Assembly: GCA_947488235.1 (NCBI GenBank)
Contig: CANLAQ010000002.1
Location: 38,190 to 102,189, forward strand
Source of the DNA: Flavobacteriales bacterium
GTDB lineage: Bacteria > Bacteroidota > Bacteroidia > Flavobacteriales_D > Crocinitomicaceae
Direction of reading: 5' to 3'
DNA length: 64,000 nt
The notes under the pieces were generated by a model, which saw only the letters and a program-made list of their open reading frames with translations, searched no databases and was not told the DNA's origin. This document shows positions 13,059 to 21,866 of this stretch, in pieces (within the stretch, counting starts at the first letter, position 1; every line of letters begins with the position of its first letter). The translations under genes and the position numbers were made by a program.

Positions 13059-13697
13059 ATGACATTTCAAAAAATAAATAGGGAGCTTTTTGTAATAATC
13101 ATTCTGATTATTTTATATAGCGTTGGACTATTTGGTATTTTATCCCCAACATGGAAATCCGTTATTTTACCTTTATCGTCGATAAATTTGACGCTGTCTT
13201 TTCTCGCTATAATTTTTACCATTGAAGCACCAAGGGGAAAGATAATTAAATTTTTATTTCTTGCTTTCTTAATCGGTTGGTTGTCTGAATGGGTTGGCGT
13301 CAATACAGGCTATCTTTTTGGCGTTTATCATTATGATGTAAACTTGGGAGCAAAAATATTCGGCGTTCCTTTAGTGATTGGATTGAATTGGGCTTCTTTA
13401 ACAGTTGGCGCTTCTTATTGGGCTTCTAGACTTTCAAAGCAAAGATTCCTTAGAATATTAATTGGCGCCTTAATCATGGTTCTTTTTGATATATTAATGG
13501 AACCCGTTGCTATTAGAAATGAATATTGGACTTGGGATAACAATTATATCCCAATTTATAACTATGTTTCTTGGCTGTTTGTTTCTTTATTATTACAGAC
13601 TATTTATTTTTATTGGATAAAAGAATCAATGAACAAAGTAGTAGGAGTCTTGTTTATTTTGATGAGTTTATTTTTTATAATTTTAAATTTATTTTAA
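13059..13697 (+). CDS. Carotenoid biosynthesis protein, DUF422/CruF-like membrane protein
   Basis: GWLSEWVGVNTGYLFGVYHYDVNLGAKIFGVPLVIGLNWASLTVGASYWASR and FDILMEPVAIRNEYWTW; multi-TM; followed by crtZ and lycopene cyclase. Confidence 0.85.
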   Translation: MTFQKINRELFVIIILIILYSVGLFGILSPTWKSVILPLSSINLTLSFLAIIFTIEAPRGKIIKFLFLAFLIGWLSEWVGVNTGYLFGVYHYDVNLGAKIFGVPLVIGLNWASLTVGASYWASRLSKQRFLRILIGALIMVLFDILMEPVAIRNEYWTWDNNYIPIYNYVSWLFVSLLLQTIYFYWIKESMNKVVGVLFILMSLFFIILNLF

Positions 13698-14176
13698 TGT
13701 TCTGGATAGGCCCCCTAATTTTAATTGCAACTTTTTTCCTAATGGAATTTGTCGCTTGGTGTACGCATAAATTTCTCATGCACGGCATAATGTGGTATTT
13801 CCATAAAGACCATCATCAAATTGAGCCGGGATTTTTCGAAAAAAATGATGTCTTCTTTCTAATCTTCGCAATTCCATCTTGGTTGTTCATCATGTTGGGT
13901 ATGATGTCAAAAAATTATGTATTGGTTTGGATTGGTTTTGGAATTGCTTGTTATGGAGCTTCTTATTTTTTGGTTCACGATGTCTATATTCACAGGAGAT
14001 TTTCCTGGTTAAGAAATATTGATCACCCTTATTTTTATGCGATCAGAAAAGCACATAAAATTCACCACAAAAACATCGGAAAAGAAGAAAGTGAATGTTT
14101 CGGAATGCTTTTGGTACCTAGGAAATTTTATAGAGAGGCGCGTACAGCGTATTTACGAAACACCCAAACCAAATGA
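13697..14176 (+). CDS. crtZ: Beta-carotene hydroxylase (ORF track call extends upstream; ATG at 13697 overlaps previous stop)
   Basis: Fatty-acid-hydroxylase-type His clusters HKFLMHG, HKDHH, HDVYIHRR, HKIHH. Confidence 0.92.
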   Translation: MFWIGPLILIATFFLMEFVAWCTHKFLMHGIMWYFHKDHHQIEPGFFEKNDVFFLIFAIPSWLFIMLGMMSKNYVLVWIGFGIACYGASYFLVHDVYIHRRFSWLRNIDHPYFYAIRKAHKIHHKNIGKEESECFGMLLVPRKFYREARTAYLRNTQTK

Positions 14177-14856
14177 GTCTTTATGCTATTTTAATTATCG
14201 GTGTTTTTATAGGGCCCCTCGCTTTAAGTTTTGATAAAAAGGTGGCATTCTATAAAGAAATTCGCTTTTTAATTTTAGGCTTGTTTGTAACGGGGGCTAT
14301 TTTTTTAATTTGGGATGAATATTTTACAATAAAAGAAGTATGGGGCTTTAATCCTAAGTATTTATTAGGGATTTATTTAGGTCACCTTCCCCTTGAGGAG
14401 GTCTTGTTTTTTATAATAGTTCCTTATAATTGTGTCTTTGTGCACCAAGTATTAAAAGCTTATTTTCCAAGTATTAAACTTAAAAATATTTCCAGTGTCT
14501 TTTTGGTAAGTATTGCGATAAGCGCTTTATCTCTAGCTTTATTTAATTATCATAATTGGTATACCTTTTCTACTTGCTCGTTGGCATTTATATTATGCAC
14601 AATTGCTATTCTATTGAAACCAAGATGGTTAAATAATTTTTCTTTTACTTATCTCGTTTGTCTGATCCCATTTTTATTTGTTAATGGAATTCTAACAGGA
14701 GCAGCTACTAGTGCGCCAATTGTCTGGTACTCGGAATCTCACATTATTGGCCTGCGGATACTTACGATTCCATTAGAGGATATCTATTATAATTTTTCCC
14801 TTTTAATTTTGGTTATTGCTTTTTTTGAATGGCAAAGAGGAAAATCACTTTCCTAA
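14173..14856 (+). CDS. Lycopene beta-cyclase, fused CrtYc-CrtYd type
   Basis: Two homologous halves: LGHLPLEEVLFFIIVPYNCVFVH and IIGLRILTIPLEDIYYNFSLLI; multi-TM; ATGA overlap with crtZ. Confidence 0.9.
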   Translation: MSLYAILIIGVFIGPLALSFDKKVAFYKEIRFLILGLFVTGAIFLIWDEYFTIKEVWGFNPKYLLGIYLGHLPLEEVLFFIIVPYNCVFVHQVLKAYFPSIKLKNISSVFLVSIAISALSLALFNYHNWYTFSTCSLAFILCTIAILLKPRWLNNFSFTYLVCLIPFLFVNGILTGAATSAPIVWYSESHIIGLRILTIPLEDIYYNFSLLILVIAFFEWQRGKSLS

Positions 14857-20690: not shown

Positions 20691-20805
20691 AACTTCCCCT
20701 AGCTTTATTAAGGCCACAAATTTTATATAAAACATTCCTATATTATTACCGATTTTTATCTATTCTGATTTAATAAAATTGGCAATTCAAGCTTAAGTTA
20801 AGGAA

Positions 20806-20842
20806 ATAAAAAAGGGCAAAAATGAAAACATTTTTGCCCTTT
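20806..20842 (-). terminator. Intrinsic terminator for the rhodopsin gene
   Basis: 14-bp perfect stem AAAGGGCAAAAATG/CATTTTTGCCCTTT with AAAA loop; T-rich tract follows on the minus strand. Confidence 0.85.
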
Positions 20843-20861
20843 AATCGAATTGTAGATTAAA

Positions 20862-21578
20862 TTAATCTTCTTTTCTAGATAATGCATAAATAACTAAACC
20901 GAAACCGATTTTGTTAATAGCATCAGCAATGTTATAAACGATGTCCATTGCTCTTACTGCAGCTTCAGGATCTGATACTAACTTGATTCCAAACAATCCA
21001 CCTGGAGTTCCAAGAATATATCCTAATGGATAAATTGCCCATCCAACCAATACAAACCAAGCAAGGATTTTTGTTGCTTTAGCAACTTGTGGTCCAGCAG
21101 TTTGTGCTAGTTTTGCAACTTCACCGAACCAAACTAGGTAAGCAATGTAGAAATAAGCTGCTCCTGAAAGAACACCCCACATTACACTGTTTCCTCTGTC
21201 AATTGTTTCACCGAAGTAACCTGTAACTAACATTACAAGTGAAGCGAAAATCAATTTCCAAAGTAAGCCTATTTTAGCTCCAGCTTTTTTGGTAATTAAA
21301 TAAAACTCAACACACATTAATGGCACCGTTAAGATCCAGTCAACATATCTGAAGAATGTTGGTGAATCACCAGTTTCTAGGTTGTACCCTCTCATGTAGT
21401 AGTAATGTACTGCTGCAATGAAGGTAATTAGTCCTGAAACTAATACGGATGTTCTCCATTTTTGAGGTGTGTTGTTTAACTCAAAAAAGAAGAATACTGA
21501 AGCGGCCATCATGGCCATTGTACCGATAAAAAACGTAAACGCTACGTAATTATCACTTGCAATCTTTAAATGTTCCAT
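20862..21578 (-). CDS. Proteorhodopsin, predicted light-driven H+ pump (DTE motif; green-type Met; Gly at fenestration position)
   Basis: HYYYMRGY, RYVDWILTVPLMCVEFYLI (D..T......E), SVMWGVLSGAAYFYIAYLVWFGE, GWAIYPLGYILG, IADAINKIGFGLVIYAL (Schiff-base Lys). Confidence 0.97.
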   Translation of the reverse strand: MEHLKIASDNYVAFTFFIGTMAMMAASVFFFFELNNTPQKWRTSVLVSGLITFIAAVHYYYMRGYNLETGDSPTFFRYVDWILTVPLMCVEFYLITKKAGAKIGLLWKLIFASLVMLVTGYFGETIDRGNSVMWGVLSGAAYFYIAYLVWFGEVAKLAQTAGPQVAKATKILAWFVLVGWAIYPLGYILGTPGGLFGIKLVSDPEAAVRAMDIVYNIADAINKIGFGLVIYALSRKED

Positions 21579-21866
21579 AGTTAAAAAGTTTTAGTTTGTC
21601 CTACTCTTAAGGATTTTCGGTTTCTCCATTACTAAAGGTTGGTTGGAACTCCAACTTTTATCATCGCAATTATAACAAATACAGATAAATTTTTGTTCAA
21701 CTTTTGTTAAAAAAAGTTTTCAACATTTATTTATTTATATATAATTACTATACAGGTAGGGCATTTTAAATTAATCTTGAGGTGATTTTCTATTGAAAAG
21801 AGACAATAAATTAAAGGTCTTTTTTTTGAATTGGAGGGAAATAGTAGGACTCTTTAGCTAGCCTAA

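Follow-up and report, generated by a model that had tools for sequence, protein, structure and literature searches.

Fenestrated proteorhodopsins of the 3-hydroxyxanthophyll type are already known. According to Das et al. (2025; PMC12308411), 3-hydroxyxanthophylls are bound by KR1 from Dokdonia eikasta and by EinA29G6, both of which carry Thr where Kin4B8 has Ser208, and the title of PDB entry 9JOU names a 'zeaxanthin-bound light-driven proton pumping rhodopsin, NM-R1'. A search of the literature for a paper on NM-R1 and its carotenoid found none, many journals and preprints lying outside its coverage. Das et al. take a Gly at the fenestration, where bacteriorhodopsin has a bulky Trp (PMC13093654), as the primary criterion of a carotenoid-binding site. 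Tyr204 (Kin4B8 numbering) is conserved in the known carotenoid-binding rhodopsins, Ser208 is crucial for 3-hydroxycarotenoids (S208A leaves 2% binding), and Y209F retains binding while energy transfer is halved, from about 40% to 18% (PMC12308411). The Gly fenestration is also found in Salinibacter ruber xanthorhodopsin (XR, 3DDL; Met211/Ala212) and Gloeobacter rhodopsin (GR, 6NWD; Met/Leu), which bind 4-ketocarotenoids and belong to a different family from the rhodopsin described here. Going by its title as cited in PMC11855829, a 2024 preprint (Fujiwara et al., 10.1101/2024.11.08.622755) deals with carotenoids that enhance rhodopsin phototrophy and may cover the present case.

The rhodopsin gene lies on a 64,000-nucleotide stretch of DNA from a Flavobacteriales bacterium of the Crocinitomicaceae (the window; features are listed in Table 1). 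It is an intact open reading frame, from ATG to stop, and is the single rhodopsin gene found in the host assembly (2.45 Mb, 89% complete). A profile search matched the 238-residue product to PF01036 (Bac_rhodopsin) at 1.5e-42, and this match, the retinal lysine K223 and an AlphaFold model that matches solved rhodopsins together indicate the seven-helix microbial rhodopsin fold. Helix C reads RYVDWILTVPLMCVEF. Alignment placed its D80, T84 and E91, invariant in 109 aligned relatives, on the D97/T101/E108 triad of green proteorhodopsin (GPR), and Met88 in the column of GPR residue 105, the green/blue tuning position; both the D/T/E pump motif and the Met that an earlier, sequence-only reading had pointed out were thus confirmed. 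Within the proteorhodopsin clade of Bacteroidota, the protein is predicted to be a pump that moves protons outward in the light, and it probably absorbs green light. Because a strong intrinsic terminator stands just after the gene, it is probably transcribed alone.

Table 1. Coordinates of the features discussed, numbered within the window except for the last row.
Feature	Position	Strand	Basis or remark
cruF-like carotenoid 1,2-hydratase	13059..13697	+	PF04240; below NCBIfam CruF cut-offs, Pfam-level assignment
crtZ, beta-ring 3-hydroxylase, overlaps cruF and crtYcd	13697..14176	+	58% identity to L054 CrtZ, His motifs, start checked
crtYcd, lycopene cyclase	14173..14856	+	PF18916, TIGR03462
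1,173-bp insertion with rhodopsin gene and terminator, between convergent glmS and PAP2-like gene	20691..21863	.	absent in G100
Intrinsic terminator, 14-pair stem and T tail	20811..20842	-	directly 3' of rhodopsin gene
Proteorhodopsin CDS, 238 aa	20862..21578	-	PF01036, D80/T84/E91, K223, AlphaFold pLDDT 88, best PDB match 9JOU
Pro192 codon, = Kin4B8 Tyr209; Pro in NM-R1, Asp/Glu in KR1/EinA29G6	21003..21005	-	alignment
Thr191 codon, = Kin4B8 Ser208; Thr in KR1, EinA29G6, NM-R1	21006..21008	-	alignment, PMC12308411
Tyr187 codon, = Kin4B8 Tyr204, conserved in carotenoid-binding rhodopsins	21018..21020	-	alignment, PMC12308411
Gly135 codon (GGT), = XR Gly156 / Kin4B8 Gly153 / GPR Phe152	21174..21176	-	alignment, invariance in relatives
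Met88 codon, green/blue tuning position (GPR 105)	21315..21317	-	alignment
CrtY-Blh fusion, 675 aa	L112:235-2262 = G000:C11:31125-33149, outside window	+	PF05834, PF15461

The residue at the fenestration was assigned from an unforced MAFFT alignment with the sequences of PDB entries 3DDL (XR), 7YTB (Kin4B8), 6NWD (GR), 9WFA, 5AZD, 9JOV, 4JQ6 and 7B03, in which the XR residues agree letter for letter with 3DDL. Gly135 (in MWG135VLSG) shares its column with XR G156, Kin4B8 G153 and GR G178, and the same column holds Phe in GPR (F152, full-length numbering) and Trp in 4JQ6. The hand alignment of the sequence-only reading, which had put Gly at the XR Gly156 site where green proteorhodopsin has Phe, was therefore correct, and no bulky residue occupies that site. 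Misalignment was rejected, the alignment being unforced and the hexamer MWGVLS being common to this protein and Kin4B8. Gly stands at this position in all 109 aligned relatives (~59–99% identity), and its codon varies among GGT, GGA and GGC across 120 loci (a few of which are the same gene fetched twice). Since Gly is constant while the codon drifts, the amino acid is kept, as a property of the clade rather than a peculiarity of this host genome; a chance Gly was rejected on the same ground.

Among solved structures the nearest relatives are 9JOU/9JOV, 4JQ6 and GPR; XR, ClR and NaR score far lower. An AlphaFold2 model built from 33 homologues (pLDDT 88, pTM 0.85) had 9JOU as its best PDB match in Foldseek (63% identity, TM 0.88/0.91, rmsd 2.0), with zeaxanthin-bound Kin4B8 (8I2Z) and XR also matched. 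Together with the alignment and the clade-wide conservation of Gly135, this best match to a homologue that carries zeaxanthin according to its entry title supports the fenestration predicted earlier. NM-R1 (62–63% identity) is alike in the D/T/E residues, the Met tuning residue and the pocket, where G135, S138, G139, Y142, Y187, T191 and P192 correspond to its G142, S145, G146, Y149, Y194, T198 and P199; the sole mapped pocket difference is Ile188 in place of Met195. It also differs in a shorter loop before helix G, and its host's pigment may be different. By their published residues, KR1 and EinA29G6 share the proteorhodopsin family, the Gly, Tyr204 and a Thr at the Ser208 position, and EinA29G6 has Ile at 205 like Ile188 here, but both have Asp or Glu where Pro192 stands. 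Kin4B8 (7YTB/8I2Z) likewise has Gly153 in MWGVLS, Tyr204 and, against Thr191 here, Ser208, but it is an XR-family protein of only ~30% identity with Tyr209 against Pro192 and Thr157 against Gly139. XR and GR share a Tyr (Tyr207) with the present protein, but membership of the XR family was rejected on ~30% identity to XR as against 62–63% to NM-R1 and on Thr/Pro at the 211/212 positions. Green proteorhodopsin (7B03; 41–42% identity) is of the same family with the same pump residues, but its window is closed by Phe152 and it has Leu105 instead of Met88.

Of the further pocket features described for Kin4B8, the Tyr204 equivalent is present as Tyr187, yet it also occurs in non-fenestrated GPR and does not discriminate. 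The polar Ser/Thr feature is present as Thr191 (Thr in 106/109 relatives). The position of Tyr209 holds no polar residue (Tyr, Asp or Glu) but Pro192 (Pro in 101/109 relatives). Since NM-R1, zeaxanthin-bound by the title of its entry, also has Pro, a polar residue at this position seems dispensable for binding, and binding is to be expected here as well.

An overlapping cruF-crtZ-crtYcd operon (13059–14856) lies within the window, 6 kb from the rhodopsin gene, and contig C14 of the assembly carries crtB adjoining a CrtI/D gene that matches NF058655 (bifunctional phytoene/3,4-desaturase) with 728 bits against a cut-off of 640. No Pfam or NCBIfam model matched the CrtZ of the window, and a genome scan with PF04116 returned a sterol-desaturase-like protein only; that the host has no crtZ was rejected when CrtZ from L054, a Bacteroidota metagenome-assembled genome (MAG), was used as the query and found the gene inside the window. 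Family scans can thus call crtZ absent where a Bacteroidota CrtZ is present. Corresponding genes cloned from Nonlabens make myxol when combined with CrtD and CrtA-OH (PMC11855829), and Algoriphagus uses cruF, crtYcd and crtZ for flexixanthin (PMC10784355). From its gene content the host is predicted to make a 3-hydroxylated carotenoid, probably of the monocyclic saproxanthin type if the host has no CrtA-OH, with zeaxanthin as a possible product; a saproxanthin-type pigment would resemble salinixanthin in having no second ring (PMC12308411). The native 3-hydroxycarotenoid that had been proposed without reference to these genes gains support from crtZ, cruF and crtYcd in the window and from crtB and CrtI/D elsewhere. 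CrtZ was found in 34/34 rhodopsin-positive genomes of the family and in 94/115 others (Fisher p 0.004, uncorrected for relatedness). A near-identical operon is present in G100, a close relative that has no rhodopsin. Carotenoid operons in rhodopsin-less relatives imply that here the pigment predates the pump and must have another use, so that its presence speaks only weakly for an antenna. In the L054 MAG (L054:6001-11141), rhodopsin, crtI, crtB, an unknown gene, crtZ and crtYcd stand in one run, linking the same pump directly to 3-hydroxycarotenoid genes.

The rhodopsin gene appears to be a newcomer to its site. In G100, where the region is 94–95% identical in DNA, the stop codons of glmS and the PAP2-like gene abut and positions 20691–21863 are missing (junctions taken from blastn blocks between the window and G100), and in five further relatives without rhodopsin these two genes are direct neighbours. 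The protein is 98.7% identical to its counterpart in another genome, G084, compared with 77% for the neighbouring rpoN; its GC content is not aberrant (0.33 vs 0.36). The simplest account is that a segment with a single gene was gained horizontally in recent times; its loss from the relatives would be less parsimonious. The rhodopsin has thus probably not co-evolved with the pigments of this host. A plasmid search returned only rhodopsins of <30% identity, and no plasmid vehicle was seen. One contig filed as viral (IMGVR_UViG_3300046323_000337) encodes a 61% identical rhodopsin, the lone match among viral contigs. Three MAGs titled Polynucleobacter, Methylotenera and Proteobacteria (L013, L014 and L081) carry this Bacteroidota rhodopsin, probably through binning errors on short contigs and less probably through transfer.

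The reading we favour, with a probability of roughly 0.7, is that of a fenestrated proton pump in which a native 3-hydroxyxanthophyll is docked as an antenna and passes blue-light energy to retinal. Gly135 on helix E would leave a hole beside the beta-ionone ring of retinal; the 3-hydroxy-beta-ring of the xanthophyll, most likely monocyclic and saproxanthin-like, possibly zeaxanthin, would enter this hole and dock near Tyr187 and Thr191, from where blue-light energy could be handed to retinal. We infer carotenoid binding, the identity of the carotenoid, energy transfer and its efficiency from the comparisons above. By analogy with Kin4B8, where changing Tyr209 to Phe halved transfer, Pro192 at this position would speak against efficient transfer. 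It could accordingly be argued that the pocket binds the host carotenoid mainly for stability, photoprotection or a quicker photocycle, and that little energy is passed on, Pro192 being unable to hold the ring geometry in place. Pro is usual at this position in the relatives, and Kin4B8 Y209F still binds; ketocarotenoids bound in Kin4B8 transfer poorly (PMC12308411, PMC13093654), Gloeobacter rhodopsin gains pH stability on binding canthaxanthin (PMC9151804), and the preprint title cited in PMC11855829 names photocycle acceleration beside light-harvesting. However, KR1 and EinA29G6, which are of the proteorhodopsin family and combine Thr with an acidic residue, were reported to have antenna function (PMC12308411), and we regard binding with little transfer as a minority prospect, clearly less probable than a working antenna.

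Less probable again is that the pump runs on retinal alone, Gly135 being a leftover of the clade's ancestry and the host's own carotenoid remaining in the membrane. Such a situation would fit a gene in a recent insertion, with its high identity to the G084 protein, and a carotenoid operon shared with relatives that lack rhodopsin. Purifying selection on Gly135, Tyr187 and Thr191 across the clade argues against it, as do the tolerance of a plain pump for Phe or Trp at the fenestration, as in GPR/BPR (PMC9151804), and the occurrence of CrtZ in every rhodopsin-positive genome of the family. That the protein is no proton pump at all, but a sensor or an opsin acting as a scramblase, is very improbable: apart from lipid scrambling by opsins in general (PMC12805836), no support for it was found, while the D/T/E triad and retinal lysine are complete, no transducer gene adjoins the rhodopsin gene, the closest solved relative (NM-R1) is a proton pump, and the host genome has a gene for retinal synthesis. 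If the antenna reading is true, antenna-assisted rhodopsin phototrophy would extend to a large group of near-identical proteorhodopsins, mostly from lake and pond Bacteroidota, and the locus would offer a testable case of a horizontally acquired pump recruiting an antenna pigment that its host was already producing for another purpose.

The gene for retinal synthesis, linked to rhodopsin in related genomes, is a more novel item than the pump itself. The assembly encodes a single Blh, as the C-terminal half of a 675-residue protein in which a CrtY-type lycopene cyclase makes up the N-terminal half (PF05834 at 2e-40, PF15461 at 2e-29). Many Bacteroidota have kept this fusion, as a rule beside their rhodopsin gene. 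Eighteen CrtY-Blh proteins could be aligned, with conserved His and acidic residues in both halves, and a structure model of the fusion reached pLDDT 88. The fusion was found in 26 genomes of the family sample, 23 of them with rhodopsin (Fisher p 9e-16, uncorrected for relatedness), and in 13 of these 23 the two genes are neighbours, 106–162 nt apart; in 48/80 named loci of close rhodopsin relatives, the fused ORF lies <400 nt away on the same strand. Among the 26 fusion genomes, 25 have CrtYcd and all 26 have CrtZ. No description of a bacterial CrtY-Blh fusion was found in a literature search that left many journals and preprints outside its coverage, and the only comparable fusion it returned was the eukaryotic CrtI-CrtB-CrtYc/d-Blh protein of Thecamonas (PMC10016063).

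The presence of two cyclases suggests separate duties, one feeding xanthophyll and the other feeding retinal. A wider proposal, which we put forward tentatively and hold at somewhat less than even odds, is that in this Bacteroidota clade each of the two chromophores of the pump has a lycopene cyclase of its own: together with CrtZ, CruF and CrtID, CrtYcd would give a 3-hydroxylated monocyclic xanthophyll serving as membrane pigment and antenna, CrtY-Blh would channel lycopene via beta-carotene to retinal, and the genes for fusion and rhodopsin would travel together among freshwater Bacteroidota as a cassette of two. Through such presumed channelling, the fusion suggests a way for a cell to form retinal while sparing its beta-carotene from hydroxylation. 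In one genome (G046:C1:238360-238900), remnants of a rhodopsin (residues 146–238) and of the start of a CrtY-Blh gene were found, apparently a decayed cassette, and in a Cryomorphaceae MAG (L056) two copies of the rhodopsin gene stand side by side with fragments of a second CrtY-Blh.
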